Origin: Ferruginibacter sp.
GTDB lineage: Bacteria; Bacteroidota; Bacteroidia; Chitinophagales; Chitinophagaceae
NCBI GenBank assembly: GCA_025350645.1
Contig: JANXXM010000125.1
Span: 1 to 64,000, forward strand
Direction: 5' to 3'
DNA length: 64,000 bases
The notes under the pieces were generated by a model. That model was given only the letters and a program-made list of their open reading frames with translations, was not told the DNA's origin and did not search any database. Position numbers and translations under genes: made by a program. The first letter of the stretch is position 1, and the number at the start of each line of letters is the position of its first letter. This document shows positions 41,792 to 59,699 of the stretch, piece by piece.

Positions 41792-44700
41792 TTATTTTAC
41801 AATCTCCACCGGAAAATCATTTCCAAAACCATAGCTGGCAGGGTATTGGGCGGCGCCATTGTATTTTTTCATTAAGGCCGGAACTTGTAATTGTAAAAAG
41901 TTTTTTAATCCATTTACTGTTATCATTTTATTGTTTGCGGCTTCGCCTTTTAATGCCTGTAACAAAACGTAAGTGAAAGCGCCATGACCCAATGAAGAAA
42001 ATTCATTGGCAAATTGCTGTGAACCGCTGGCGGCAATCCAGTGGGTGCCTGTACTTCGGGCAACTACTGCTAAACTTTTTTGTTGATTTGCATCGCCGGT
42101 TAATAAATCTGCAAAAGCTCCTGCGCTCTGGCAGGCATCAAGGATAAAAACCTGTTTTTGTGCTGGAATGTCAATAGCATACTGTTGCAACATTTTGGAG
42201 GAAATACCATTTTGAGCAAGTGCTTCATCTACATTTTTCAAATCAGTTACATCTGTTGGCACTAAATAAAATTCTTTATTTTTTTCGCTTATCACACCAT
42301 GGCCGGCATAATAAAATACCATCACATCCTGCGGTTTGGCATTTTGCTGTACTTCTTTTAGCGCAGCCAAAATACCTACTTTGTCGGCCTTATCATCGGT
42401 AATAAAATAGGTCTTGATATTCGCCATCATTGATTTTACATCTTTTTCTGTTACCTCTTTAAATGCGGTGGCGTCCGCCAGTGCATAGTTAAGGTTCAGT
42501 TTAGCATTTTTATATTGGTTTATTCCTATAACAATGAGGTGCATGGTTGCATTTTTGTCAATTTTATCAACAATAACATTGGTATTATCATTTATAACAG
42601 GTGTATTATTTGAGTTGGATGATGAGCCATCATCATAAATAATATTAATAACATCTGGCTGGCTTTCCGTGCGTTGTGTATTTAACGCAACGGCTCTTAT
42701 TTGATTTCTGCCTGGCAATAAATTAATGGTATATTTTTTACTATCACTGCCATCATTGTCTGCAACAAAGAGCCCACGGGTGGCCAAGTTTACAACTTTA
42801 CCATTGTGAAATAAACGTATCTCATCTACCTTATCGTCAGGCGCAGTTGCATTAACGGTTATTTCGGCAATACCGGTTGTATTTTGATAAGAAGGCAAAT
42901 CTGCATCAACTGTTAAGTTGCGCTGTTTTTCTGCATATTTAATTTTAACCAATGGCACTTTTTTAATAGTATTTATATCTACAGGTAAAGGATTAAATTG
43001 TTCTCCACTTAAAATCCGATTGATAAGCATAGGGGTAAAGAATTGTTCATACACCCCTTCAAGCGGAATGATTTCTTTCCCTCTGGTGTAATACATTTTT
43101 TTTAGTACTTCTGAGGACGCATCAAACCTGCCATCAGGCATTAAAGCAACCCAGTCTTCTTTCTCTTCAAACAGAATCAACTTAAATAATTCTTTTTGAT
43201 TTTTCCAATCCCAAATACGAATAGTATTGTCTGCAGAAGAAGACACAAGGAATTTATCATTACCCATCAAATCAGTGTACATTACCGAATTGCTGTGTCC
43301 TTGTAATTCGCTTGTTTTTTCAAGAGTTTCAAGATTCCAGATTTCAATGTTATTTCCTACATTTAGAAATGCAAACTTTGCATCATCGGTAACAACTGCA
43401 TTATTGATTTTTTTACTTCCAAAAGTTTTTTTATTTAGCTCTGTACCGTTTTCTGCATTAAGCCAGATTGCCTCATTATTGTAGTGGTCTATACAGAAAA
43501 TACTTGAATTTTTATTGATGAATTTGAATGAATAAATATCACCTTCTTTATCCCATAGTGTATTACCAGTTAATAAACTCATACAGGTTACCAGGTATTT
43601 ATTTTCCTCAGTGATACCCAAAAAAATAAACTTTTTATTGTCATCTGAAAATGCACCAATCCTTTCCTTTGTAAGAAGCATGTGAGTCCCATTTTTAAAA
43701 AGATAGATAATCTTTTTTGTAGCTAGATTAATGATTCGTATTTGCCTATCACCGACTATGGCCACAAGTTTTCCATCCTTTGAAAATATAACCTCGGTAG
43801 CACCACCTTCTTTTGTGAGAGTTTCGATTGCTGTATAAGTGTCGGGGGATTCAGTATTATAAATATTTATAAACTCTTGTGAAACACTTATCCCAGTTTT
43901 ACCATCGGGAGAAATACCTACCACTTGACTACTATATTTTATGTCTAGATTTTTTACTTCAAAACCATTAGGACCAATATTTAATTGTTTGAAATATTGC
44001 ATATGACTTCCCAGCAGTATCGTGTTGCTTTTAACGGCAGTTTTTAGAGCCCAAACATCTAGCACTGCGTCACCAAAATTGTTGCCTGCGCTATTGGTAT
44101 TGGTGTTAAAAGGGTATAAGTATACCGACTTACTATTGTAATTATTAGTTCCAATAAAAAATGTTCCTTTAACTGGGGAAAAACAGATACTGCTAATTTC
44201 ACCTCTGGGGGAATCAAACGGTCCGGCAACAGTCTTATTAACATAATCTAACACTACGAAATCCTTGCTACCAGCCATAACGAATTCGCCTGTATTTGCA
44301 CTAAATTCCGCCATTTGAAAATTATAGAGCGTAGTGAAGAAGCTATTCATGTGAACCGTTGTTTCCCAATTTATTTGTAGGGTTTGGGCATTAAGAAACT
44401 GAACATTATAGCTATTTGAACCAGCTTCCTGAATGGCCAGTAAAGATCCTGTTGGTGTAAAGCACCAAATATTTTTTTCTTGAGGATATACAATTAGTTC
44501 TTTTCCGCTGGTATCAATAAGCGCAGAGCCTTTGAATTTTGAATAACAAAGTAATTTATCCTCTTCTTTATTCAGCGATATACGGGGAAACTCTATGTCC
44601 CACGAATCAGCATCTGCAAGCGTATGAATTTTTTTGAAAGAATAATCTTCCAAATTTAGTTTAATAATATCCGCCTTAAATTGCTCTGAAGATGCGGAAA

Positions 44701-45094
44701 TGAAAAGTGTTTGTCCGTTAGATGTTAATGCAATGCATTTCATACCCTCCAGAAAGAATTGTTTTGTTATGGTGAATGTTTCAAAATCAAAAATCATTAG
44801 CACATCATTTCCCATTGCAATAAGTTGCCGACCATTATCTCTCAAAAGAAATTTAAAGAAAGAATAATTTTTACCATTACTTATTTTTGGAAATGAATAA
44901 AGCAATTTGCCTGAACGATTATCCCAAACCTTAGTCGTATAGTCGAGGCCGGAAGACACCAAATATTTATTATCCGGCGTAATAATTGTAGAACGCACAT
45001 CATCACCATGCCCCGCAGGGATTACCAGTTTTGGAGTTTGCGCAAAACAGTTAGCCGCCACAAAAAAAGATAAAATAAAAAATATTTTTTTCAT
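41792..45094 (-). CDS. Secreted WD40 beta-propeller and caspase (C14) protein, copy C
   Basis: 1100 residues. The signal peptide ends NCFAQ (about residue 19). WD40/beta-propeller repeats fill about 25-690 ('VIPAGHGDDVRSTIITPDNKYLVSSG', 'LQGHSNSVMYT'...'NTIRIWDW'). A linker follows ('GRFDASSEVLKKMYYTRGKEIIPLE', about 650-690), then a beta-sandwich region with two RNLxV-type motifs (42899-42922; 42755-42778 in the variant RGLFV). The C-terminal caspase p20 domain (about 850-1100) has catalytic H932 (YYAGHG) and C988 (LDACQSAG). This is the general architecture of prokaryotic caspase homologues. Substrate and trigger are unknown. It lies 22 bp downstream of copy B, so co-transcription is likely. 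Confidence 0.9.
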   Translation of the reverse strand: MKKIFFILSFFVAANCFAQTPKLVIPAGHGDDVRSTIITPDNKYLVSSGLDYTTKVWDNRSGKLLYSFPKISNGKNYSFFKFLLRDNGRQLIAMGNDVLMIFDFETFTITKQFFLEGMKCIALTSNGQTLFISASSEQFKADIIKLNLEDYSFKKIHTLADADSWDIEFPRISLNKEEDKLLCYSKFKGSALIDTSGKELIVYPQEKNIWCFTPTGSLLAIQEAGSNSYNVQFLNAQTLQINWETTVHMNSFFTTLYNFQMAEFSANTGEFVMAGSKDFVVLDYVNKTVAGPFDSPRGEISSICFSPVKGTFFIGTNNYNSKSVYLYPFNTNTNSAGNNFGDAVLDVWALKTAVKSNTILLGSHMQYFKQLNIGPNGFEVKNLDIKYSSQVVGISPDGKTGISVSQEFINIYNTESPDTYTAIETLTKEGGATEVIFSKDGKLVAIVGDRQIRIINLATKKIIYLFKNGTHMLLTKERIGAFSDDNKKFIFLGITEENKYLVTCMSLLTGNTLWDKEGDIYSFKFINKNSSIFCIDHYNNEAIWLNAENGTELNKKTFGSKKINNAVVTDDAKFAFLNVGNNIEIWNLETLEKTSELQGHSNSVMYTDLMGNDKFLVSSSADNTIRIWDWKNQKELFKLILFEEKEDWVALMPDGRFDASSEVLKKMYYTRGKEIIPLEGVYEQFFTPMLINRILSGEQFNPLPVDINTIKKVPLVKIKYAEKQRNLTVDADLPSYQNTTGIAEITVNATAPDDKVDEIRLFHNGKVVNLATRGLFVADNDGSDSKKYTINLLPGRNQIRAVALNTQRTESQPDVINIIYDDGSSSNSNNTPVINDNTNVIVDKIDKNATMHLIVIGINQYKNAKLNLNYALADATAFKEVTEKDVKSMMANIKTYFITDDKADKVGILAALKEVQQNAKPQDVMVFYYAGHGVISEKNKEFYLVPTDVTDLKNVDEALAQNGISSKMLQQYAIDIPAQKQVFILDACQSAGAFADLLTGDANQQKSLAVVARSTGTHWIAASGSQQFANEFSSLGHGAFTYVLLQALKGEAANNKMITVNGLKNFLQLQVPALMKKYNGAAQYPASYGFGNDFPVEIVK

Positions 45095-45116
45095 TCAAAT
45101 TAAATTTTAATTTTCA

Positions 45117-48100
45117 TTATTTCAACATTTCCACCGGAAAATCATTTCCAAAACCATAGCTGGCAGGGTATTGATTATTACCTCCATATTTTTTTACCAG
45201 TTCCGGTACCTGTATTTGCAAAAAGTTTTTCATTCCATTTACGGTAATCATTTTATTTGCTGCAGCCTGCCCTTTGAGTGCCTGTAATAAAACGTAGGTA
45301 AATGCACCATGGCCAAGCTCCCCAAATTCCTTTGCCGTTTCTGTACTGCCGCTTGCTGCCATCCAATGCGTACCCGTACTGCGGGCAACAACAGCTAGGC
45401 TTTTTTGCTGCTCACCATCGTGCTGCAGCATAGCATTAAAAGCTCCTGCGCTCTGGCAGGCATCTAAAATAAATAATTGTTTTTGTGCCTGTATATCTAC
45501 TGCATATTGCTGCAGTTCTTTTGCGGGAATGCCATTTTTTAACAGGCTTTCTCCCCCATCGGCAACGTCGACCGATACTAAATAAAACTCTTTATTAACC
45601 GGATTTATATAACCATGCCCTGCATAATAAAATACAAACACATCCTGCGGTTTGGCATCTCTTTTTATTTCGTTGAATGCTGTTACAATGCCAGCCTTAT
45701 CGGCTTTTGCATCTGTAATAAAATATGTTTTTACATTGGCAAGCACACTCTTTGCATCTTTTTCTATTTCTTCTTTAAACGCAGTAGCATCGGGCAATGC
45801 ATAGGCCAGCGGGTTTATTTTATTGGTATAAGCATTTATACCAACAACCATCAAATACATGGTTGCATTTTTATCAATGGAAGATATAATGCTTGTACCA
45901 TTATTTTGAATTGGTTTCGGTGTTGGCTGAATACCATTTGCTGAATAGGATACAATAATTTCATCAGGGTCACTTTCTGTACGCTGGGTATTTAATGCAA
46001 TGGCTCGTATATTATTATTGCCGGGCAGCAGCGAAAGCTGGTATTTATTTGTTTTTGAACCCCCGTTATCATCAGCCACTATCAAATTACGAGTGGTGAG
46101 TGTTACGATTTTCCCATTCTGAAATAACCGTATCTCATCAATACCATCATCTTCGGCAGATGCAGTAACAACAATATCGGCAAAGCCTGTTTTATTTTGA
46201 TAACTGGGTACATCTTCTTCCACATTAAGATTACGGGTAGCTTCGGCATAAGCAATTTTTACCTTTGGGGTACCTTTAATATTAATGTTAATGGGGTCAA
46301 ATTTTTCTCCATTTACAAGACGTGTAAAAAGGTTTGGCGTGTAAAATTTTTCGTAAACTTTATCAAGATTTACCACTTCTCTCCCCTTTAAAAAATATAG
46401 TCTTTTTATCCCATTGTCTGTTCCATCAAATCTGCCATCCGCATTTACAAAAACCCAATCCGCAGTGTTTTCAAAAATATATAGGGTTCCAAAATATTTG
46501 CCCGTTATAGCGTTATAGGCATTCATCGATTTATCTGCATGTATGGTATAAAGAATGCTATCGTTTTGTGTAAATTCGATATTGGTTACTGGCGAAGAAA
46601 TATGATCTAACCTAAACCGATTTGGACCATACACTGTCTCTACAATTGTTTCATTTTCATCTTGGTAAGTTGCAATAATATTTTCGAGCTTATGATCACC
46701 AAAAATATTTACTTCATGTTTACCATCAAACATTTTCCCATCAATAAATTTCTTTTCTGTAGCCTGCCCATTCGTTAAATTAAATTCATATAAATTTTCA
46801 CTTCCCAATACTTTCACTATTTTATCACTAGTTTTTTTAACAGCTTTTAAAATAAATGGTCTGTAATCATTGCCCTCTTTTTCAAAATCTTTTATGTTTA
46901 CGTAATTATTTCTAAGGGTGGCCGAATCATACATGAAAGGATGGCTTGCCAAAATTTTTCCGGTTTTAATATCAATAATTTTTACATATCCTTTGAAATC
47001 ATTTTCTGCAGACGCAAAAATTTCGTTGTCCTTATCCATTATTAATTGTTTAACAGCATAAGGGCTGTATGCGCTGCTTCCACCCAAGCTTTTCCATTTA
47101 GCAGATTCCATGCTTGCCGCACTAAATATTTTTTCAGATTTATTGGTTGCAAGGTTGTATTTATACAAGTTACAGGTATATGGATCGGTATCTTTTACAC
47201 CATATTGACCTATTGTGTAATATGCTATACCAGGAGTGGTTAATGTAAAAAACTCCGGCAAGCCTGCAAATTGCCTGCTAATAGTTTGATGGGTAGTGGC
47301 GAAATCTTTTACTGTGAATGCTGTTGATTTTTTGCTTTTTTTATCATAGATAAAAAAAGTGTTTTTATCTGTGGTTATTGAATTGTAGGACAGCAAAAAG
47401 CTATCTTTATTAAGTCTAATGGACGATACCACATTGGAGGGGATGGAGGGCACTGTGTCATAAATGTACACGGCTGACCGATTAAGATCAACCACATAAT
47501 TAGATTTATACATTTTAAAAGTACCTTGATTAATATTGTCTGAAACGATGGTTGATGCATTAAAACTCATCAAATTTCCTTCTCTAAAAAAAGAAGAAGT
47601 ATTTATTTCGGGCATTGCTCTTTGTACCGTTTCTTTTCCGTTATTATCAATATTAGCTTTAAAGAGTTTGTAATTATAATCAACATAAATAACGGTGTTA
47701 TTTTTTTTGGATAATGCAGCAACATAAATTTCATCACTTATATCCAGCAACTTTTTCTTTTGAATTTTATACCCCTGTGAATATATTACCAGTTCCTGTT
47801 TGTTATATCTGGTTCCCTTGTTGGTTATGTACAATAATTTATCCGCATTCGTACTTGCCTGCATAGTAATAGCAGCATACGCTGGCATAAAGGCAAACTC
47901 TCTATTATTATAAATATCCCATGTAGCCCAACCAAGCCCCTGCTTTCTTTTTTGTTGAAAAACAAACAATCCCGATTCAGGATAAACCTCAAAATTGTTT
48001 TCATTAAATGCCATGTTGGGCTCCGAAAGATTTTTTTTTGCTTCTGCAGAAATTTGCTCGTTGGCCACTTCTTTTTTTTCATCAAGGTCCAATATCTCAT

Positions 48101-48710
48101 AACCCTTTTCATTAAAATTAATAATGCGACTATTGAGCAAGGGGAAAAAGTATTTTGCACTTAGGCCAAATGCATTTAAGTATTTTAAATGCCAATAGTC
48201 CTTTACAGAGCCATTTGCAATAGTTACAGCCTTTACCATTCTACCCTCTGGCTCATTGCTATTGGCAATTGTTGGTCCGTTTGCTATGTAGTAAATGGTT
48301 TTTGAATCTTTTGAAAAAACTATCTTAGACTCTACATTTGCTATGGCTTGTAAGAATTTACCGGTAGCAGTAGAAAATATTTTTAATGAATCTTTTACGG
48401 TAATACAAGCCAATATATTTCCATCTGGAGATATGATAAGTTCTTTAAAACTGGTTACCCTAGTGGCAGTACCTGCATCCGTAGATATGTTAGCAATTGT
48501 AAAAGAGTAAAGTTGTGTCATGGTTTTAAAATTCCACATAATAATCTTTTCATCATCTGCTGTATAAAAAAATTTATTTTCTCGATCAATAATTATTTTA
48601 GATATTTTTTGGTTTAGAGCGGTAGGTATTACAATCTTGGGAGCTTGAGCAAAAGCAGCAACTTTTAATAAAGTAAATACTGTAAACGTTTTAACTACTT
48701 TAAAAATCAT
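45117..48710 (-). CDS. Secreted beta-propeller and caspase (C14) protein, copy B
   Basis: 1197 residues from the ATG at 48710, which opens a signal peptide (MIFKVVKTFTVFTLLKVAAFAQ); an ATG at 48773 would put 21 polar residues before it. The mature chain starts APKIVIPTALNQ. Degenerate beta-propeller repeats run to about 760. The linker 'GRFDGTDNGIKRLYFLKGREVV' and a beta-sandwich with two motifs (RNLNVEED 46212-46235, RNLIVADD 46068-46091) follow, then the caspase domain with H1032 (GHG) and C1085 (DACQSAG). It shares a 44-bp exact stretch with copy C at the 3' end (45130-45173 and 41805-41848). Confidence 0.9.
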   Translation of the reverse strand: MIFKVVKTFTVFTLLKVAAFAQAPKIVIPTALNQKISKIIIDRENKFFYTADDEKIIMWNFKTMTQLYSFTIANISTDAGTATRVTSFKELIISPDGNILACITVKDSLKIFSTATGKFLQAIANVESKIVFSKDSKTIYYIANGPTIANSNEPEGRMVKAVTIANGSVKDYWHLKYLNAFGLSAKYFFPLLNSRIINFNEKGYEILDLDEKKEVANEQISAEAKKNLSEPNMAFNENNFEVYPESGLFVFQQKRKQGLGWATWDIYNNREFAFMPAYAAITMQASTNADKLLYITNKGTRYNKQELVIYSQGYKIQKKKLLDISDEIYVAALSKKNNTVIYVDYNYKLFKANIDNNGKETVQRAMPEINTSSFFREGNLMSFNASTIVSDNINQGTFKMYKSNYVVDLNRSAVYIYDTVPSIPSNVVSSIRLNKDSFLLSYNSITTDKNTFFIYDKKSKKSTAFTVKDFATTHQTISRQFAGLPEFFTLTTPGIAYYTIGQYGVKDTDPYTCNLYKYNLATNKSEKIFSAASMESAKWKSLGGSSAYSPYAVKQLIMDKDNEIFASAENDFKGYVKIIDIKTGKILASHPFMYDSATLRNNYVNIKDFEKEGNDYRPFILKAVKKTSDKIVKVLGSENLYEFNLTNGQATEKKFIDGKMFDGKHEVNIFGDHKLENIIATYQDENETIVETVYGPNRFRLDHISSPVTNIEFTQNDSILYTIHADKSMNAYNAITGKYFGTLYIFENTADWVFVNADGRFDGTDNGIKRLYFLKGREVVNLDKVYEKFYTPNLFTRLVNGEKFDPININIKGTPKVKIAYAEATRNLNVEEDVPSYQNKTGFADIVVTASAEDDGIDEIRLFQNGKIVTLTTRNLIVADDNGGSKTNKYQLSLLPGNNNIRAIALNTQRTESDPDEIIVSYSANGIQPTPKPIQNNGTSIISSIDKNATMYLMVVGINAYTNKINPLAYALPDATAFKEEIEKDAKSVLANVKTYFITDAKADKAGIVTAFNEIKRDAKPQDVFVFYYAGHGYINPVNKEFYLVSVDVADGGESLLKNGIPAKELQQYAVDIQAQKQLFILDACQSAGAFNAMLQHDGEQQKSLAVVARSTGTHWMAASGSTETAKEFGELGHGAFTYVLLQALKGQAAANKMITVNGMKNFLQIQVPELVKKYGGNNQYPASYGFGNDFPVEMLK

Positions 48711-48802
48711 GGTATAATCTATTAATGAGAATTTATGCAGATAACATTTTTTATTGGGGTTATACCTTATCATGTTTAAAAGAAATAAGCATATTTATTC
48801 AA

Positions 48803-49106
48803 CTATTTTAACAACTCCACCGCAAAGACATTTCCAAAACCATAACTAGCCGGGAACTGATTGTTGCTACCATATTTTTTAGCAGTTCCGGTACCTGTAT
48901 TTGCAAAAAGTTTTTCATACCATTTACTGTAATCATTTTATTTGCTGCTGCCTGCCCTTTTAATGCCTGCAACAAAACATAGTAAATGCACCATGGCCAG
49001 GCTCGCCAAATTCCTTTGCAGTTTGGGTACTACCGCTTGCTGCCATCCAGTGCGTGCCAGTACTACGGGCTACAACAGCAAGGCTTTTTTGTTGCTCACC
49101 ACCGTG
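48803..49106 (-). pseudogene. C-terminal fragment of a fourth caspase-like gene
   Basis: Read on the minus strand, this matches the last 100 or so codons of copy B, from the 'SLAVVARSTGTHWMAASG' region to a 'VELLK-stop' end. It lacks everything upstream, including the catalytic Cys and His. Single-base losses (for example in the 'TTTTTTAGCAG' and 'CATAGTAAATGC' parts compared with copy B) break the frame. It lies between the TPR gene and copy B, showing that the cluster once had, or gained and lost, another copy. Confidence 0.85.
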
Positions 49107-49131
49107 TTAATTTTATAAACCAGTCTTCCCT

Positions 49132-50535
49132 TTACAAAACCTGCTTCAACTCTATACTAAAATCTACTTTCATTTTTAAGATAATAGGATTATTAGCATC
49201 GTCATTTATCCATAATTCTTCACCATTTTTTGCAAGCACTTTTATACATTTTACATATTTTATACCATCATCTACCGTAATAGGATAGTAAGAATCATCA
49301 CTATTTTTTTCACTTACCAATTGAAATTCTTTTGAACCTTCCCATTCATTTGCATTAATGGATGAATATCCATTTGTTTTAAATTCATTAAAAACTTCTT
49401 TGCTTATCCATACAGATGTTCTGGTATCTAGTTGTATATTTTCTTTTCCAAATTTATTCATTTGGTCGTGAGCAGTTGCAATAGCTTCCTTGCTTATGTT
49501 TACCGTTCCGTTATACATGGCATCGCCTGTAAGTTTGTATTTAAAGGATATCCCATTATCCATATCTACATTGGGGTTGCTCACCCTAAAATCATATTTC
49601 ATATCATTAAAAATTACTTCGTAAATATAAGTGCGCTGCAGGTTAGGTTTTACGTCTGCCATTATCTGTGGGCAGTTAAAAAGCTTGCCATAGTAATCAC
49701 CATCATCAAACTGGGTTTTTAATATTTGTGCATCTTCACAGGCTTTTTCGGCATTGCCCATATCGTTATATAACATGGCTCGTTGTCCAAAATAATTTCC
49801 CATGCTGTCTTTTTTTATGTAGTCCGTTGCTTTATCTATCCCATCCTGATAGCGTTTATCTTTAACATAAAAACCAAAATAATCTTTTAAAATATCGTAT
49901 GTATTATTACCTGCAGCTATTTCATCTTCCAGCAATTTGTAAGCTTCTGGTTTTTTTTCGCTGCCATAGAGTATGGTAGCATAAAGATTTACAAGCGCTT
50001 TTTTATATTTTGCATTTAAAAGGTCGTATCCTTTTTGTGCATTGCTTAATCCTTCTGTCGCCTTTCCATCATCCGATAATTGTGCAGCTTTAAATAAATA
50101 AGGAATACCATTTTTTGGAGACAATGCTATGGCAGAACTGTAATAAATATCTGCATTTCGTTTCTTACTATAAAAATCAAACTGAGAAGGCATAATAGCA
50201 ATAACAGTAGCGGCAGTATCTTTATTTTTAAAATATTTTTTTATATCAGCAATGGCGGGCTTATCCATCTTCAGCATAATTTCGCTGTTAATTTTTGTTA
50301 AATAAATATTTTCATCTTTAGGATTTCTTTTAAGCAAAGTATCTGCAAGGGATAAAACCAGTTTGTATTTTTTCCTTTTATATGCACTCTCCAACTGCTT
50401 CTTCAATAATTTGGTAGGCACAATAGGGATTATTTTTTTCTCCACATTAGATGCAGGAATTACAACTGGTTTTTGCTGGGCAAATAAAATATTGCCACAA
50501 AAACAAATGAGCATTAATACAATAATTTTTTTCAT
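49132..50535 (-). CDS. Secreted TPR-like protein of the caspase cluster
   Basis: 467 residues. The signal peptide is MKKIIVLMLICFCGNILFAQ. The mature start 'KPVVIPASNVEKK' matches the mature starts of the caspases. Helical TPR-like repeats occupy about 45-300 ('AYKRKKYKLVLSLADTLLKRNPKDENIYLTK', 'GQRAMLYNDMGNAEKACEDAQIL'). The C-terminal third (about 305-467) is a beta-rich region with no recognised domain. It has no protease motif. It lies 35 bp downstream of caspase copy A and is probably co-expressed. It may be an adaptor, substrate or inhibitor, which is inference. Confidence 0.78.
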   Translation of the reverse strand: MKKIIVLMLICFCGNILFAQQKPVVIPASNVEKKIIPIVPTKLLKKQLESAYKRKKYKLVLSLADTLLKRNPKDENIYLTKINSEIMLKMDKPAIADIKKYFKNKDTAATVIAIMPSQFDFYSKKRNADIYYSSAIALSPKNGIPYLFKAAQLSDDGKATEGLSNAQKGYDLLNAKYKKALVNLYATILYGSEKKPEAYKLLEDEIAAGNNTYDILKDYFGFYVKDKRYQDGIDKATDYIKKDSMGNYFGQRAMLYNDMGNAEKACEDAQILKTQFDDGDYYGKLFNCPQIMADVKPNLQRTYIYEVIFNDMKYDFRVSNPNVDMDNGISFKYKLTGDAMYNGTVNISKEAIATAHDQMNKFGKENIQLDTRTSVWISKEVFNEFKTNGYSSINANEWEGSKEFQLVSEKNSDDSYYPITVDDGIKYVKCIKVLAKNGEELWINDDANNPIILKMKVDFSIELKQVL

Positions 50536-50570
50536 ACAAGTGTGTTTTGGTTTGAGGTTATTTATATTTT

Positions 50571-53500
50571 TTATTTTATAATGATAATGGGAAAATCGTT
50601 GCCATAGCTATAGCTGGATGGATATTGCTCTGTGCCTTTATATTTTTTTGTAATCTCCGGCACTTTATTCTGCAGGTAGGCATCCAGTTGTTTTACAGTA
50701 AGTTTTTTATCTGTGTTGCCGGCGTCGCCTTTAAAAGCTTCTAAGAGGCAGTAAGTAAATGAGCCATGCCCCAGTTGCTGAAACTCTGATGCAAACTGCT
50801 CGCTACCACTTGCAGTAAGCCACTGTGTACCCGTGGCACGTGCAAGCTGTGCAATGGCTTTTTCTTCTGCTGCACCACGGGCTCCTGCTACCACTTCCAA
50901 TGCACCTGCACTCTGGCATGCATCTAAAATAAACAACTGTTTTTGCGCTTTTATATCTTTGCTCATTTGCTGCAAAGCCGCTGCACTAAAGCCTTTTTGC
51001 GCAAGCGCACCATCATTGCCATACATTTGTGTAACATCATAAGGCACCAGAAAAAATTCTTTTTTATCATTTATTACGCCATGGCCGGCGTAGTAAAATA
51101 CAAACAAATCCTGCGGGCGAGCAACCGCTTTTATCTTTTCAAAAGCAGTTATAAGTCCTTCTTTAGTGGCTTCATCATCTTTTAAAAAAGTGGTGTTTAC
51201 TTTGCCAAATAAATTTTGCGAACCCTGTGTAAGTGCAGCTATAAAAGCAGTAGCATCTGCATTGGCATAATTTAAACTGTAGCGTGGGTTTTTATAAATA
51301 TTTACACCCACTACCAGCAGGTGAAGCTGTATATCGTTACCCTCCGGCTTTGGGGGAACAATTGCGGGTGTATAGTTTGCAATAATTTTTGCAGGCAAAC
51401 TTTCTGTACGCTGGCTGTTTATAGCCACTGCCCTAAAATTATTTATACCAGCATTAAGTATTACGGTAAAATTTTTAGTGAGTATTTTTTCTCCTTTATT
51501 ATCATCTTCTACTGATAAATTTCTCGTGCTTTGTACCAGCTTTCCGTTTTGGTATAAACGTATTTCGTTTACTACATCTTTTATTCCATCGGCTTCTGCT
51601 TTTATGGTTACCTGTTCCTTATCTGTTTTTATTGTTTCTATATCATCTGCTACTTCCAGGTTTCTGTCTTTGTTTTCTATGGTTATTTTTATGAGCGGGG
51701 CAGATTTTAAATCGTTTATATCCGGTACATTATCGGGCAAAGTATTATCCCATATTTGTTTTAATAAGCCGGGTACATAATATTTTTCAAATAAACTTTC
51801 TATAGGTATTATTTCTTTGCCTTTAGTAAAGTACATTTTTTTTAATGCGCCTTCGGTAGCATCAAACCTGCCATCATCTGTAAGTAAAACCCAGTCACCA
51901 GATTTTTCAAACATATATATTTTACCAATTTTTCTTTTCTTCACCACATCCCAAAGGCAAAGCCCACCGTACTCTTCAGTAAGCATATACCGTTCGTTAT
52001 GTAAAAAAATAAATCCCTTTACTTCATCGCCGGTACCCTGCATTTTACCATCCTGTTTGTTGTGGATGATGTCTACCAGCCCAATGTCAGAGCCGGCGTC
52101 AACATTTAATGCTACAGGAATTTGTGTAGCTGCATATTTGCCGGAAGGAGAAATAATAGTTTCAAAATCTGATTTTGGAAGTTGTATATCCCCTCCTATT
52201 TGTGTGCCTGTTTCTGCATCAAGATTTATTAATTTATCGTTGGAAGTGAACAATAATTTTTTACCATTTTCTGTAAAACGGATATTACGGATGTTTACCG
52301 ATTGAAAATTCCATTTTTCATTTCTATCAGCAAGGTTTACACAATAAATAAAATTAGCAGTATCTCCTCTGGATTCTGCAAACAAAATCATCTTTGTATT
52401 ATCTGGTGAAAAATCACAAAATTTATTCAATCTTTCTGTACCTGTATAATGCAGCCCGGATGGTATATCGACTATATATAATACTTTCAGAGTTTTTAAA
52501 TCCATCACATAAATACCTTCATTGCCAGTGAGCACAATAAGATTGAGTGCATCAAAAATTTGCATTCCTACAAATCGTTTACGTAGATTTTTTATTTTAG
52601 TAATATTTTCATACGTTATCTTGGCAGCGTTAGCATTAAAACGAAAAAGGCCATCCTGGTCATTATATAAAAAACCTGTTTCGCCATCGGCAGTAATGCG
52701 ATACAAAAACCCACTATAGTCGCTTTTAAAATCGGGATCTACAAGGCGCATATTAAAGACGCCGTTATCAAAATTTAAAAACCTGTCTTTAAGACAAACA
52801 GCATCTTTATTTTTATATACAAACTGCACATAAGAATTAAGCGGAAGGAGGCCATAGCTGGATATTTCAACGTTTGTAGTGCTGTTTATTTTACTCATAT
52901 TTGTACCTGCTACAAAATAATTACCTGATGGAGAAAGTGCAATGTTTTGCTGAAATTGTGCATCGTAGTTATGCAGATTTTTATCAGGCATTTTTGCAGA
53001 GGCGGAAAAATCTGTCGGATTAAACAGCACAAAATTATCTGTATAATACAATAATATTTTACCGGAGGTGGAGGGATAAGCTTTTACACTGGCTACAGGA
53101 TTTGTTTCAAATTGTATACGAAAAATTATTTTCGATTTTTTAACCGGTGCATAATTTTTACCATTAATTTCTTCTGTATAAAATACTTTTTCTGCTCTGC
53201 CGGAAAACATGATCACATTACCATTTGCTAAAAAGCAATAAGGATAGCCATTGCTGTTTTTAGAAAAAGTTTTTATTAATTTGCCTGTTTGCACATCCAT
53301 AAGCCAGCTTGCATCATACGGGCTGGCAATGAGCAGTGTTCCGCCATCCGGCGAAATATCCAATCTTTTAACTTCATAATAATCATCGGGTACTACGATG
53401 ATATTTTTTAAAAGTTCGTTTTTTCCGGTGGCACAATTAATTTTTTCGATAAGCAGACTATCATTGAAGGCAATTCTTCTTCCGGCAGCAAACAATGTTT

Positions 53501-53921
53501 TTCCATCAGGAGCAAAAACCATAGCTGTTCTAAAACCTCTTGCAGCTATTTTTTTAATTATGGTAAACTTATCAAAGTCAAATAAATAAATACTATCTGC
53601 AAATTGCATAGCTAGTGTAGTGCTTCCTGCATCTACAGCCATTGCTATTTTTCCATCATCAAATCTTTTATTATCCTTACCGCCGGGGGTAAGATTTTTT
53701 AATAAACTACCCGTTTTATTATCCCATATTTTTATACCATCTTTAGCTGCAGATATTACCCACTTATCGTCTGGCGAAATAACTACAGCGTTAGCCTCAT
53801 GCGTAGCAGGTATAATAAGTTCCGGCCGCTGTGCACGAAGCTTTCCGTTAAAAAAAATTATAAAAAGCAGGCAGCAATAAATTGCTTTTTGCAAGTGCAA
53901 GGCATTGCATTTCTTCTTCAT
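50571..53921 (-). CDS. Secreted beta-propeller and caspase (C14) protein, copy A
   Basis: 1116 residues from the ATG at 53921, which opens the signal peptide (MKKKCNALHLQKAIYCCLLF...LRAQ); an upstream ATG at 53969 adds 16 unlikely residues. The mature start is RPELIIPATHEANAVVISPDD. Beta-propeller repeats run to about 700, followed by 'GRFDATEGALKKMYFTKGKEIIPIE'. The beta-sandwich has two motifs (RNLEVADD 51642-51665, RNLSVEDD 51501-51524). The caspase domain has H947 (YYAGHG) and C1002 (DACQSAG). It is the most divergent of the three copies and lies 64 bp after the papain gene. Confidence 0.9.
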   Translation of the reverse strand: MKKKCNALHLQKAIYCCLLFIIFFNGKLRAQRPELIIPATHEANAVVISPDDKWVISAAKDGIKIWDNKTGSLLKNLTPGGKDNKRFDDGKIAMAVDAGSTTLAMQFADSIYLFDFDKFTIIKKIAARGFRTAMVFAPDGKTLFAAGRRIAFNDSLLIEKINCATGKNELLKNIIVVPDDYYEVKRLDISPDGGTLLIASPYDASWLMDVQTGKLIKTFSKNSNGYPYCFLANGNVIMFSGRAEKVFYTEEINGKNYAPVKKSKIIFRIQFETNPVASVKAYPSTSGKILLYYTDNFVLFNPTDFSASAKMPDKNLHNYDAQFQQNIALSPSGNYFVAGTNMSKINSTTNVEISSYGLLPLNSYVQFVYKNKDAVCLKDRFLNFDNGVFNMRLVDPDFKSDYSGFLYRITADGETGFLYNDQDGLFRFNANAAKITYENITKIKNLRKRFVGMQIFDALNLIVLTGNEGIYVMDLKTLKVLYIVDIPSGLHYTGTERLNKFCDFSPDNTKMILFAESRGDTANFIYCVNLADRNEKWNFQSVNIRNIRFTENGKKLLFTSNDKLINLDAETGTQIGGDIQLPKSDFETIISPSGKYAATQIPVALNVDAGSDIGLVDIIHNKQDGKMQGTGDEVKGFIFLHNERYMLTEEYGGLCLWDVVKKRKIGKIYMFEKSGDWVLLTDDGRFDATEGALKKMYFTKGKEIIPIESLFEKYYVPGLLKQIWDNTLPDNVPDINDLKSAPLIKITIENKDRNLEVADDIETIKTDKEQVTIKAEADGIKDVVNEIRLYQNGKLVQSTRNLSVEDDNKGEKILTKNFTVILNAGINNFRAVAINSQRTESLPAKIIANYTPAIVPPKPEGNDIQLHLLVVGVNIYKNPRYSLNYANADATAFIAALTQGSQNLFGKVNTTFLKDDEATKEGLITAFEKIKAVARPQDLFVFYYAGHGVINDKKEFFLVPYDVTQMYGNDGALAQKGFSAAALQQMSKDIKAQKQLFILDACQSAGALEVVAGARGAAEEKAIAQLARATGTQWLTASGSEQFASEFQQLGHGSFTYCLLEAFKGDAGNTDKKLTVKQLDAYLQNKVPEITKKYKGTEQYPSSYSYGNDFPIIIIK

Positions 53922-53985
53922 ACAAAAAATATTTGGTAAGCAATTTTCTGCAATACCTTTTACAGGCATTGCAAAAAATGAATTG

Positions 53986-55620
53986 TTATTGATGTTTTAT
54001 TTCTACCATAAGTGGTACCACAGTTCCTGTTGTAGGTTTTGAAGGCTCATCATCTGTAACGGTAAGATTACGGGATGATAATTTTTTTGTACTGAAACCC
54101 ACTTTATCTTTATCGTAGTTAATTTTACTTTTATCAATGAGCTTATTACCCAGTACTGCTCTTATTTTGCTGCTAAGCGGGCCTTTCATATCATTCATTT
54201 TTTCTGCCATTGCTTTAGCATCCAGTTGTTGTGCGGAGTATAATACCAGTAAATAATCTACACCCTTTTGTTCATCCAGTTTTATCACTTTAGTATCTGA
54301 CGGAAAAGCGATAATAGATCCTGCACCCACATGGGTAGATGTCCTGTCATCAAACGGAAGTATCCTGTTTACCTTACCGGTAAGGTCTGTTGCAAATGCA
54401 TACACATAAGCTTCTGCATCTACATTCATAAAAAGGCGGAAGGCATCGCCGCTGTTGTAGGTATTTTGCATAGTGTAAGCCACAAGGTCTTCTTTTTGTT
54501 TTGGCTCATCTTCTTCTACCGTAAGATTTCTGGTAGATGTTTTTTTAACGGGCATATCTGCACCAGTGTTTAAAGTAAAATCTATTGTACCGCTTAATGC
54601 AAATGTTTCTTCTTTTACGGGTATGGGTTTTGGTTTTGGTTCTGGTTTTGGCTCTGGTTTTGGTTCTGGTTTAGGTTCTGGCTTTGGCTCTGGCTTTGGC
54701 TCTGGTTTAGGTTCTGGTGTAGGTTTTACCTCATCTGGCATTTTAGTATTATACCCTGCAAAAACTTGTATAGCCACGGTACACCACTTTGCAACGTCTT
54801 TATATTTTACCCATATAAACCCACCATCGCCCCAGCCTGTACCCCAGCTATTTATTACCCGAAATGCGCCACCATACTTATTATCATCGTACCCTATAAT
54901 TGCCATTGCATGGCCACGGTGCTGCCATTCTCCCACCACTTCATTATCTGCAGGCAGCCACACATCTGTAGTTATTTTAAAAAAAGTTTCTGGCAGCGCA
55001 AAGCCCACGGATACGGGTGAACCTTCATTTAAAGATTTTTTTATCAGCTCTATCCGCACATCATTTGGTTTATCATATTCTGCAACAAAAGTGGAATATA
55101 ATACAGAGAAATCGCTGATCTTGTAATTGGATGCCTCATCTACAGCAGTAGGCGGAATGTAAGAACCACATTTGTAAGGAATGGTTGTATTCAACGGCAA
55201 ACCTTTCTCCTTCATTACGCTTAATGCAAGAATAGGATCAGCTCCTTTTTGGCAATCTGCATCATCTGTATTCTTTATTTGCTCGTATAAATAAGTAGGA
55301 GAAAAAATGTATTTGTTGATGACATTTTTATTGGTAAGATTATATTTTTTTGCATACAATGTAGTGGCTACACCATACGTAGCCGCAAATGCAGCACAGG
55401 TGCCATGCTGACCCTGATTACCGGGTGTGGGGCAATACGCTTCCAGCGATACCATGGGTGGCAGCGATTGAAAACTCCTTGTGGAGAGATCTAATTTTTT
55501 AGGGATTTTTGCAATACTTGCGGCATCAAAATTTGCACCGGTAAAATATTGCTGGGCTGTAAGTGTAGTACTTTTAATAAATAACAATACCAAGGCAATA
55601 GCAATTAGTTTTTTCTTCAT
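53986..55620 (-). CDS. Secreted papain-family (C1A) peptidase with Pro-rich linker and C-terminal DUF4384-like domain
   Basis: 544 residues from the ATG at 55620 (an ATG at 55641 precedes it by 7 codons). The signal peptide ends TLTAQ. The peptidase domain (about 40-290) has the oxyanion Gln and catalytic Cys in 'GNQGQHGTCAAFAA' (Q69, C75), His in 'HRGHAMAIIGYD' (H237) and Asn in 'VINSWGTGWGDGG' (N257). A PEPK repeat linker (about 302-335) follows, then a DUF4384-like beta domain ('AYTMQNTYNSGDAFRLFMNVDAEAYVYAF') bracketed by two RNLTV motifs (54508-54531 and 54049-54072). It is the first gene of the caspase cluster on its strand. Confidence 0.88.
   Translation of the reverse strand: MKKKLIAIALVLLFIKSTTLTAQQYFTGANFDAASIAKIPKKLDLSTRSFQSLPPMVSLEAYCPTPGNQGQHGTCAAFAATYGVATTLYAKKYNLTNKNVINKYIFSPTYLYEQIKNTDDADCQKGADPILALSVMKEKGLPLNTTIPYKCGSYIPPTAVDEASNYKISDFSVLYSTFVAEYDKPNDVRIELIKKSLNEGSPVSVGFALPETFFKITTDVWLPADNEVVGEWQHRGHAMAIIGYDDNKYGGAFRVINSWGTGWGDGGFIWVKYKDVAKWCTVAIQVFAGYNTKMPDEVKPTPEPKPEPKPEPKPEPKPEPKPEPKPEPKPKPIPVKEETFALSGTIDFTLNTGADMPVKKTSTRNLTVEEDEPKQKEDLVAYTMQNTYNSGDAFRLFMNVDAEAYVYAFATDLTGKVNRILPFDDRTSTHVGAGSIIAFPSDTKVIKLDEQKGVDYLLVLYSAQQLDAKAMAEKMNDMKGPLSSKIRAVLGNKLIDKSKINYDKDKVGFSTKKLSSRNLTVTDDEPSKPTTGTVVPLMVEIKHQ
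54622..54727 (-). repeat. In-frame tandem repeat encoding a PEPK linker
   Basis: Near-perfect 12-bp units (GGTTCTGGTTTT and variants on the plus strand) encode a run of Pro-Glu-Pro-Lys in the papain-like protein. The copy number is easily changed by slippage, so linker length may vary between strains. Confidence 0.9.
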
Positions 55621-58053: not shown

Positions 58054-58842
58054 TCAATAATAAATTTGTGCGGTAGAAAAAGTTGTTCCATCTGCATTTA
58101 ATCTTTTTCTTTCTACAGGAAAATTATTTGCATCAAAGGTATCCTGAAATGTACTAAGCATTGTTTCAGAAGTGCCATCGGCGTTTAATGTAATTTCATT
58201 TATGGACAGTATATTATTTATGCTGGTATTTCTATCCAGCAAATAACTGATACCAATAATATTTTTATTGCTGCTGTTCTTATCATCGTAAGTAAAATTT
58301 GTTGTTACTGTTTGCTTTACTGTACCAGTAGCATCGTAAGTTATTACTTCTTTTTTTACGAGATTATTATTTTGATAATTTAATGTGCCGGAGGTTATAA
58401 GCAGTTCCGCAGCGGTTACTGTATCTATCGCAAACCTTTTGTAGGTATAGCTTCCATCGGTATTATACAGGTAATCTGTTCTATAATTTTTTATGCCCCC
58501 GCTGTTAACCATTACCATTTGTGTGAGCGTTTTCAGTACGTTGTTTTCATACAAATAGTTGATGGTGTTTTTTAGCGTATCGCTGCTGGTCGTTTCCGTT
58601 TTTGTAATTAAATCGCCGGTATAAGTGTATGCAATCTTTTTGGTTAAGATACCATCAAAAGAAGTTGATGTAAGTATTTTACTGCCGTCATAAGTGTTAG
58701 TTTGTGTAGTGGTAATACCATCTTTTAACGAAACTACTTTCTGCGGAAGAATCATAACAGATTCAGCAGGAACATCATCATTTTTTTTGCAGGAGGTAAA
58801 CGCAATAAGCGTTACAGCCAAAAGGCTCAATAGATTTTTCAT
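58054..58842 (-). CDS. Lipoprotein, beta-rich with YD-like repeats
   Basis: 262 residues. The lipobox 'AFTSC' (Cys near residue 18) marks it as a lipoprotein. The rest is a series of beta-hairpin units with tyrosine and threonine ('NTYDGSKILTST', 'YTYTGDLITKTET', 'TDYLYNTDGSYTYKRF', 'TNFTYDDKNSS'), resembling YD/RHS-like or DUF4595-type repeats but without RHS core motifs. Function unknown. It has its own -7 box and is monocistronic. Confidence 0.72.
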   Translation of the reverse strand: MKNLLSLLAVTLIAFTSCKKNDDVPAESVMILPQKVVSLKDGITTTQTNTYDGSKILTSTSFDGILTKKIAYTYTGDLITKTETTSSDTLKNTINYLYENNVLKTLTQMVMVNSGGIKNYRTDYLYNTDGSYTYKRFAIDTVTAAELLITSGTLNYQNNNLVKKEVITYDATGTVKQTVTTNFTYDDKNSSNKNIIGISYLLDRNTSINNILSINEITLNADGTSETMLSTFQDTFDANNFPVERKRLNADGTTFSTAQIYY

Positions 58843-59051: not shown

Positions 59052-59699
59052 CTATTTAGTAACCAGCTTATTTTCGTAAGCATATTTTATGAGCCCAATA
59101 AGCCCTGCGGTTTTTGTTTTTCTAAAGATATTTTTGCGATGGGTTTCTACGGTGCGCTCGCTTATAAAAAGGCTGTCGGCAATATGTTTGTTGTTGTATT
59201 CTTTTTCTATGAGGCGTATAATTTCAATCTCCCGTAAGGTGAGGTGCGTTTCTTCCGCACACTTTTTTCGCTCGCTGGCTTTTATCATTTCTTCCAGCAC
59301 TTCGTTGCTAAAATATACACCCCCGGCAGATATTTTTTCCAGTGCTGTTATGAGTTCATGCTTTCCCAGGTTTTTAAGCACATAGCCAGATATATCGCTA
59401 TCGTCTATCATCTGGTTCACCAGGTCGCCCTGCCCGCTCATGGAGAGCGCAAGTATTTTTATTGCAGGAAATTTATTTTTTACATTGCGGGCAAGTTGTG
59501 CACCATCCATTACCGGCATCATTACATCTGTAAGCAAAATATCTACCGGTTCGCTTTCTAATATTTTTTCCATACGCTCCGGATGGTTGCATTCTACTTT
59601 CACCATAAATTGCGGGTGCCCTGCCAGCAGGGCTTTCAATCCGTCTATTACAATTTGGTGATCATCCACTATGGCAAGCGTAATCTTTTCCTTCTTCAT
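59052..59699 (-). CDS. LuxR-type response regulator
   Basis: 215 residues. The receiver domain (about 5-125) has the phospho-acceptor D58 ('DILLTDVMMPVMDG') and conserved Lys in 'VLKNLGKHEL'. The C-terminal LuxR/FixJ HTH (about 150-212) has 'LTLREIEIIRLIEKEYNNKHIADSLFISERTVETHRKNI'. It lies 64 bp downstream of the second histidine kinase and is most likely phosphorylated by one or both of the neighbouring kinases. Confidence 0.94.
   Translation of the reverse strand: MKKEKITLAIVDDHQIVIDGLKALLAGHPQFMVKVECNHPERMEKILESEPVDILLTDVMMPVMDGAQLARNVKNKFPAIKILALSMSGQGDLVNQMIDDSDISGYVLKNLGKHELITALEKISAGGVYFSNEVLEEMIKASERKKCAEETHLTLREIEIIRLIEKEYNNKHIADSLFISERTVETHRKNIFRKTKTAGLIGLIKYAYENKLVTK

Follow-up and report, generated by a model that had tools for sequence, protein, structure and literature searches.

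A putatively secreted papain-like and caspase-like peptidase pair sharing a linear motif in Ferruginibacter sp. and other bacteria

Organisation of the locus

The window analysed here is a 64,000-nucleotide stretch of Ferruginibacter sp. DNA (assembly GCA_025350645.1, contig JANXXM010000125.1, positions 1 to 64,000, forward strand). It contains a cluster of genes encoding a papain-like peptidase (PAP), three caspase-like peptidases (CAS1, CAS2 and CAS3, collectively CAS) and an accessory protein. The genome from which the window comes (G000) is 3.6 Mb in size, and the gene neighbourhood was compared across 59 relatives. Open reading frame (ORF) calling places five intact genes and one broken caspase 3′ end on the minus strand. 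The supporting evidence is given in brackets; AF2 stands for AlphaFold2 and Ig-like for immunoglobulin-like.

53986–55620, minus strand: PAP, putatively secreted C1A papain-like peptidase with a Pro-rich linker and DUF4384, 544 aa (ORF, Pfam, catalytic residues, AF2 model)
50571–53969, minus strand: CAS1, tandem β-propeller, Ig-like region and C14 caspase-like peptidase, 1132 aa from the first ATG (ORF, Pfam, alignment, AF2 model, Foldseek)
49132–50535, minus strand: TPR-like, putatively secreted accessory protein, 467 aa (ORF; without Pfam match)
48804–49106, minus strand: fourth caspase gene, frame-broken 3′ end (DNA comparison with CAS2)
45117–48773, minus strand: CAS2, propeller, Ig-like region and C14 domain, 1218 aa from the first ATG (ORF, Pfam, alignment)
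41792–45094, minus strand: CAS3, propeller, Ig-like region and C14 domain, 1100 aa (ORF, Pfam, alignment)

PAP starts with the ATG at 55620, and the likely starts of CAS1 and CAS2 are internal methionines at residues 17 and 22, respectively. From PAP to CAS3, the intergenic gaps are 16, 35, 358 and 22 nt, and the fragment lies inside the 358-nt gap. The original prediction for this DNA had described five intact genes and a fragment on one strand, which agrees with the present layout; its gaps of 22–65 bp are replaced by the values above. At the DNA level the fragment shows 87% identity to the CAS2 3′ end, and alignment gaps disrupt its reading frame; it is therefore what remains of a fourth caspase gene. 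Each of the five products begins with a hydrophobic stretch, in line with the Sec signal peptides predicted earlier for all of them; the signal-peptidase-like sites in which these stretches appear to end are a by-eye reading. From these N-terminal sequences, we infer a periplasmic or surface location for the products. The TPR-like protein has no Pfam match, its helical-repeat label coming from inspection of the sequence and not from a database; orthologues are found in four loci, including the window. Three of the four C14 matches in the whole genome lie within the module, so the set of caspases is no chance gathering. The fourth C14 gene, away from the module (L004, G000:C142:4285-4809), lies in a 444-codon frame.

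Domain architecture and catalytic residues

PAP matches Peptidase_C1 (PF00112) with 55.1 bits, the cut-off being 20.7, and DUF4384 with 43.6 bits, both above the curated cut-offs. The Gln, Cys, His and Asn residues of C1A peptidases are all present in the alignment. CAS1, CAS2 and CAS3 match Peptidase_C14 (PF00656; cut-off 21.4) with 55.9, 50.0 and 58.2 bits and retain both residues of the C14 dyad, His (within GHG) and Cys (within DAC), so that the three intact caspase domains and the intact C1A peptidase of the original prediction are borne out. In an alignment of 36 CAS sequences, which includes none of the ten motif-free CAS described below, H963 and C1018 (CAS1 numbering) are invariant. 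Among 100 distinct CAS, the His motif is present in 99 and the DxC pattern in 98. D905 and D1016, also invariant in the 36 sequences, correspond to the acidic S1 positions of metacaspases, D1016 by its position in the DxC motif only. In a profile alignment, D905 falls on chain index 115 of Trypanosoma brucei metacaspase MCA2 (TbMCA2, 4afr), taken as Asp95 after a 20-residue tag. The TbMCA2 pocket residues named in an excerpt of PMC4357240 are Cys92, Asp95, Ser156 and Asp211. The nearest solved relatives of the C14 domain are metacaspases.

The AF2 model of CAS1 has a mean predicted local distance difference test score (pLDDT) of 80.7 and contains propeller-like strands at about residues 50–700, then the Ig-like region and, at the C-terminus, a caspase fold. 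A Foldseek search with this model returned tandem-propeller structures, including Pwp2, an AIP1 homologue (1nr0) and Apaf-1 (3shf, 3sfz), with TM-scores that are low and reflect the propeller part only. The PAP model has a mean pLDDT of 85.1, and its best structural match is xylellain (3ois).

A linear motif shared by PAP and CAS

One linear motif, R-[NG]-L-x-V-[ED]-D-D, recurs in the predicted sequences of both PAP and CAS. Across both protein families it takes the form R-[NG]-L-x-V-x-[DE]-D and is usually preceded by S or T. The copies in the window are as follows.

54508–54531, minus strand: PAP site 1, RNLTVEED, residues 364–371, in a loop with pLDDT below 50 (364–377) at the DUF4384 domain
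54049–54072, minus strand: PAP site 2, RNLTVTDD, in an insertion present in part of the PAPs, inside the segment 515–530 with pLDDT below 50
51642–51665, minus strand: CAS1 site 1, RNLEVADD, residues 769–776, between the propellers and the Ig-like region, overlapping the segments 769–771 and 773–775 with pLDDT below 50
51501–51524, minus strand: CAS1 site 2, RNLSVEDD, residues 816–823, in a hairpin loop of the Ig-like region, inside the segment 815–824 with pLDDT below 50
46212–46235, minus strand: CAS2 site 1, RNLNVEED (pattern scan)
46068–46091, minus strand: CAS2 site 2, RNLIVADD (pattern scan)
42899–42922, minus strand: CAS3 site 1, RNLTVDAD (pattern scan)
42755–42778, minus strand: CAS3 site 2, variant RGLFVADN (alignment; coordinates by hand from the translation)

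In a pattern scan of the genome, all seven matches fall in PAP or CAS1–3, and the reversed pattern gives two. The codons differ among these copies, hence the motif is no DNA repeat. A similar pattern applied to 16 genomes gave 76 matches, 55 of them in PAP or CAS genes, and the reversed control gave 12 (hand tally); within this set G371 has none in its module, where the copies read RGL, and G003 has none at all. With a stricter pattern, 12 further genomes yielded 15 matches, of which 13 lie in PAP, CAS or the protein X described below by contig position (hand tally; reversed control, two). Shuffled proteins contain 0.0015 matches per protein. A chance origin of the motif is ruled out by the genome scans with their reversed controls, the shuffled proteins and the alignment counts.

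Since pattern counts presuppose the Arg, conservation was judged from alignments. At PAP site 1, R is found in 37, L in 38, V in 36 and E in 35 of 43 sequences. In the 36 aligned CAS, R816 is invariant and R769, L771, L818 and V820 are nearly so. The CAS of at least 900 aa number 102 (100 distinct), with at least one motif copy in 92 and two copies in 71. The ten motif-free proteins are seven second-type paralogues, from Verrucomicrobiota and Planctomycetota loci that also hold a motif-bearing CAS, together with those of loci L279 and L295 and the degenerate one of L296. The residue following the Arg may covary between the partners: the pattern finds one PAP with RG against 31 with RN, and the N/G match between PAP and CAS gives p = 0.03 in Fisher's test. 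A second RG PAP (L289, STRGLVVEQD) was recognised by eye, and the pattern also missed L252. With few events and kinship uncorrected, this covariation is suggestive only.

Four motif matches occur in the 733 other ORFs of the compared loci, and two of these belong to protein X, a DUF4384 protein whose gene separates those of PAP and CAS at loci L253 and L254. The copies in protein X, RTRNLIVEDDD and NTRNLIVEDEA, precede a Pro-rich linker. Outside PAP and CAS, the exact motif coincides with a position in the operon only in these two proteins. A 513-aa relative of protein X, motif-free, is encoded directly upstream of the motif-free CAS genes of L295 (503–2044). Among the 21 matches of the 16-genome scan outside PAP and CAS, 17 were read: eight lie in no listed ORF and nine are in frame in unrelated proteins; the remaining four begin with a Ser codon. 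One region read with these matches is a further solo CAS of G123. Two of these nine proteins, with secretion-type starts and encoded far from the module, carry RNLMVDDE (2091 aa, L212 of G204, at about 3360) and RNLKVPDE (1158 aa, L215 of G299, at about 2326); they may be further substrates or chance matches.

Position of the motif in the predicted structures

Three segments of the PAP model have a pLDDT below 50; two of them (364–377 and 515–530) hold the motif copies and the third lies in the Pro-rich linker. In CAS1, ten low-pLDDT segments are listed, and the motif copies overlap 769–771 and 773–775 and lie within 815–824. PAP residues 372–376, immediately after site 1, are variable. Motif-free CAS retain the same Ig-like hairpin with a different or shorter loop. 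As the motif is found in low-pLDDT loops and the hairpin is kept without it, it looks in these models like a linear motif borne by loops of unrelated folds, and not like a fold element.

Conservation of the PAP–CAS neighbourhood

In three of the 59 relatives (G025, G003 and G046), a PAP-like gene neighbours a C14 gene; G025 has the same PAP–CAS1–TPR order, with 55–63% identity. An order-wide draw comprised 396 genomes, with the Ferruginibacter genome listed among them, and was searched with a full-length CAS model at about E ≤ 1e-130. Full-length CAS were found in 14 genomes. According to the top PAP matches, the motif is present in PAP of 13 genomes, all of them among these 14, and in 12 of the 13 PAP and CAS lie on one contig and strand, at most about 5.4 kb apart. 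In G252, PAP and CAS are on separate contigs, and in G146 CAS lies at a contig end. A PAP-family match of any strength occurs in at least 174 genomes of this draw, the weaker ones being only partly read for the motif.

In a collection of named genomes, a scan gave 111 matches, and the best 80 of these yielded 71 CAS loci, some sharing a contig. PAP lies upstream on the same strand in 41 loci; the gap to CAS is at most 200 nt in 35 of these, overlaps included, and the median of the 41 is 17 nt. Among the other 30 loci, 22 are truncated less than 3 kb upstream of the first CAS, and no PAP is seen in eight. Nine of the 30 come from genomes already represented, and a genome search covered 20 loci in 19 genomes: PAP is present elsewhere at full length in 12, in two contig-end pieces in one, and absent or fragmentary in six. 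The pairing occurs in three phyla, and the hosts of the loci belong to Bacteroidota (Chitinophagaceae, Saprospiraceae, Flavobacteriaceae, Mucilaginibacter, Pedobacter, Arcicella, Flectobacillus and Lentimicrobium), Verrucomicrobiota (Pelagicoccus, Coraliomargarita and Puniceicoccaceae) and Planctomycetota; Dokdonia is also among the host genera. Cultured members with adjacent PAP and CAS include Dokdonia sinensis and Arcicella rosea. PAP with one CAS forms the conserved core. The TPR-like gene is an accessory of local occurrence, and tandem expansion is a lineage-specific feature.

Upstream of PAP–CAS in five loci from Flavobacteriaceae and a Bacteroidia metagenome-assembled genome (MAG) (L250, L255, L256, L259 and L261), a secreted-looking protein of about 910 aa is encoded, accompanied in four of them by small secreted-looking paralogues. 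A downstream block of other genes is common to eight or nine loci. In family f12 (L067, L158 and L159, the last known from the ORF table only), PAP relatives are paired with a secreted-looking, motif-free protein that combines GYI/GFI repeats with a C14 domain, a sister arrangement with another sensor.

Presence of the motif and presence of the partner

A phylum-wide draw of 395 genomes used thresholds of E ≤ 1e-60 for CAS and E ≤ 1e-100 for PAP; in the PAP search, scoring covered the three top candidates of each genome. CAS was found in 14 genomes and PAP in three. In the 12 genomes with CAS only, none of the 18 listed CAS has the motif, and these proteins look active, with the His motif in 17 and DxC in all 18. 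In the two genomes with both partners (G000 and G123), all seven listed CAS have it. G483 has a PAP-type match that is motif-free, and no CAS. PAP-family proteins outside the module carry no motif in 25 of 25 cases (L037–L061, some partial); one of these, L041, is from G046 and lies beside a short C14 gene. In the order survey, all 13 CAS loci read have the motif (L112–L124), and among more distant propeller–C14 proteins (L127–L140) one locus of 14 has a loose match, RGFKVNED. The CAS of L279 (Winogradskyella) and L295 (a Saprospiraceae MAG), from genomes with no full-length PAP, are motif-free. In six loci (L232, L240, L264, L272, L292 and L293), the motif is present in CAS and missing from PAP site 1. 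Across the sequences sampled, the motif follows the PAP–CAS partnership, with exceptions that are weighed below.

If there were no functional link, the two genes would be neighbours by descent and the motif a structural or subfamily mark. Both families are indeed common singly in the order, and motif-free CAS belong mostly to more distant subfamilies. However, the hairpin is kept in motif-free CAS, so the fold does not depend on the motif; PAP and protein X carry the same peptide; and the adjacency is kept over three phyla. An absence of any link is thus extremely improbable.

Two further motif-free PAP-family genes are present in the Ferruginibacter genome: L058 (G000:C170:33955-34683) and L061 (G000:C99:16731-17564), the latter with a TAG within the open frame. 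In G180 and G176, for which no PAP match is listed, two motif-free propeller–C14 proteins (L179, 1405–4614, and L180, 6218–9514) have both His and Cys replaced (GYG; no DxC); they are dead caspase homologues kept at full length.

Tandem arrays and propeller divergence

In tandem arrays, the C14 ends are 50–95% identical and the propellers mostly 19–33%; the exceptions are pairs in L269 (65% and 49%) and a pair in L284 (42%). Shuffled sequences gave identities of 24, 0, 28, 20 and 22%, with the value of 0 taken as an end-gap artefact, so propeller identity in the arrays is near the baseline only. CAS2 and CAS3 share 59% identity over the last approximately 500 residues and little similarity before, and the fragment at 48804–49106 is a further sign of array turnover. 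In two Mucilaginibacter loci, a single PAP precedes seven (L269) and four (L270) CAS-labelled frames; close duplicates occur in these arrays, and at least one copy is split.

The motif peptides might be ligands of the WD40 propellers, given that the binding of short peptides is common for propellers in general. A constant ligand, however, needs constant propellers, and the array propellers are close to the shuffled level while the motif and the C14 domain stay constant; this makes the ligand role highly improbable.

A possible two-protease module of the cell envelope

The proposal that we tentatively prefer, on the strength of the sequences, is a two-protease module of the cell envelope in which one of the enzymes would cleave both its partner and itself at the motif. 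Both enzymes would be exported to the envelope from adjacent same-strand genes, by means of their secretion-type N-termini. CAS would be a sensor–effector fusion, in which variable WD40-type propellers and the Ig-like region are joined to a nearly constant C14 domain. The motif, lying in loops between or beside domains, would serve as recognition and cutting site; its cleavage would part the propellers from the caspase, and the papain domain from DUF4384. PAP is the more likely reader and would cut between x and Val, with Leu at P2, a free P1 and Val at P1′; CAS would be the partner activated by PAP. More speculatively, the propellers could set when the loops become accessible; ligand binding to them, as the original prediction suggested, may be the trigger. 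Candidate outcomes are defence or recognition at the envelope, or turnover of envelope proteins.

The original prediction had already suggested a proteolytic cascade and had named a consistent separation of C1A and C14 genes in relatives as the observation that would count against a module; adjacency is kept across families and phyla. The cascade idea is strengthened because the motif is common to both enzymes and tied to their co-occurrence, and the cutting step itself is a suggestion from sequence. PAP is slightly favoured as the cutting enzyme, because the motif is missing from active-looking CAS that have no PAP and is kept in CAS whose PAP lacks it at site 1. C1A enzymes favour a hydrophobic residue at P2, and with Val as P1′ the cut falls in the middle of the eight conserved residues.

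Alternatively, the C14 domain would cut after the invariant Arg in CAS itself and in PAP, making the propeller-caspase the initiator and the papain the downstream enzyme. The metacaspase-type S1 acids (D905 in the alignment and the Asp of DAC two residues before the Cys) make Arg a natural P1 residue, and the Arg at site 2 does not vary in the aligned CAS. In L296, PAP keeps the motif though CAS is degenerate. According to an excerpt of PMC7475262, autocatalytic activation of the orthocaspase MaOC1 takes place at Arg219. Conservation in the motif, however, lies mostly on the prime side, after the Arg; several PAPs lack the motif while their CAS keep it; and active-looking CAS without PAP are motif-free (18 of 18, as well as L279 and L295; four fragmentary genomes excepted), which is unexpected for a self-processing enzyme. 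Cutting by CAS is doubtful, and only somewhat less likely than PAP as reader.

It is also conceivable, although unlikely, that the motif serves for docking or as a pseudo-substrate and is bound uncut, holding a PAP–CAS complex together or closing the active sites. Eight conserved positions are a large number for a cutting site, the loops are flexible and at the surface, and the motif is tied to the presence of both partners. A comparable segment is the inhibitory Arg loop in the prodomains of gingipains; the inhibitory loop of RgpB is described in an excerpt of PMC4357240. Nevertheless, the motif precedes the Pro-rich interdomain linker in protein X and lies between domains in CAS, which are typical places for processing.

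Several observations weigh against cleavage of the motif by PAP within such a module. An invariant Arg is more typical of P1 in clan CD peptidases than of P4 in papain-like ones, and neither class usually requires as much conservation as is seen to either side of any single bond. The strands flanking PAP site 1 (G353, M356 and Y382) are conserved as strongly as the motif. In G003 (L036/L062), PAP has the variant RSIIVEDD beside a TPR–C14 protein without the motif, and the PAP-type pairs of family f12 (G046, G139, G168, G163, G184 and G157) are motif-free; in L296 the motif of PAP faces only a degenerate form in CAS. The CAS-only proteins of the phylum-wide draw are more distant (280–465 versus 644–721 bits), so descent of a subfamily is confounded with the missing partner. 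Four of the six loci whose genomes have no full-length PAP (L246, L260, L275 and L278) keep the CAS motif. Three of these (L260, L275 and L278) are on contigs of 3.9–5.4 kb, and in the genome of L246 a PAP-like fragment lies at the edge of a contig; the assemblies of all four may therefore have missed PAP.

Neighbouring genes

Two genes further along the window could have a regulatory role.

59052–59699, minus strand: LuxR-type response regulator, possible regulator
59764–61575, minus strand: TPR histidine kinase, possible regulator

With the window included, the response regulator is found in 10 loci and the kinase in 11; in five loci other than the window, related genes are beside PAP or within the module. 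These two-component genes are a possible regulator and not a claimed part of the module. Between them and the module, positions 58054–58842 encode a 262-aa protein without a Pfam match. A search upstream of PAP for the -7-like promoter pattern TAnnTTTG found none; this pattern is under-represented in the window, with 83 occurrences against 116 expected.

Relation to known systems and significance

CAS resemble orthocaspases and metacaspases, such as MaOC1 and T. brucei MCA2, in the C14 His/Cys dyad and the acidic S1 positions. Prokaryotic caspase homologues with WD40 domains are known (excerpts of PMC3501461 and PMC7475262), and, as excerpted, PMC3501461 reports up to three homologues per operon and proteolysis domains in 23 operons. 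CAS differ in their predicted secretion, N-terminal tandem propellers, Ig-like region, papain partner and motif, a combination absent from the excerpted passages. The best-named C14 subfamily is that of the EACC1-associated caspases (NCBIfam NF047832), which have been linked to work on bacterial conflict systems; CAS1–3 score 84.1–88.8 bits, below the curated cut-off of 140, and no EACC1 component is seen at the locus. PAP has the fold and catalytic residues of C1A peptidases such as xylellain (3ois), with top matches that cover the papain domain only; it differs from these relatives in the DUF4384 domain, with its motif loops, that follows the papain domain.

The Apaf-1/caspase-9 apoptosome, where a double propeller controls a caspase, offers an analogy and not a membership: no NTPase or death domain is among the Pfam matches listed (25 of 36 families for CAS3). 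In addition, CAS are predicted to be secreted and have propellers and C14 domain in one chain, whereas the Apaf-1 type keeps its propellers apart from the caspase. In polymorphic toxin systems, the role of processing peptidase is ascribed to caspase-like and papain-like domains (excerpt of PMC3482391). No toxin domain or immunity gene is among the Pfam matches listed for the five proteins, no dedicated search having been made, and no repeat scaffold was identified. PADLOC reported no known anti-phage system; it gave a partial match of a generic caspase model on CAS1–3, a weak CARF match on CAS3 (E 0.004) and nothing on PAP or the TPR-like protein. A type IX C-terminal sorting domain is not among the Pfam matches for PAP, CAS1 and CAS2, nor among the 25 of 36 families listed for CAS3. 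No description of a secreted PAP–CAS pair with a shared motif was found in a limited search of an open-licence library, most subscription papers being outside its scope.

The module possibly represents an unrecognised class of extracytoplasmic protease signalling, present in three phyla. In such a class, variable double-propeller receptors would be fused to a constant caspase and paired with a papain through a private peptide code in an envelope cascade, and the arrays would diversify their propellers, by exchange or rapid evolution, over a homogenised caspase end. In its logic, it would be a bacterial counterpart, by analogy, of propeller-controlled initiator caspases. Bacterial caspase homologues are numerous and few have known partners or substrates; the module gives a concrete partner, PAP, and a candidate eight-residue site. 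If the proposal is true, bacteria such as Dokdonia, Mucilaginibacter, Arcicella and Flectobacillus would have a propeller-controlled, caspase-based proteolytic relay outside the cytoplasm, and the ligands of its sensor arrays could be sought.

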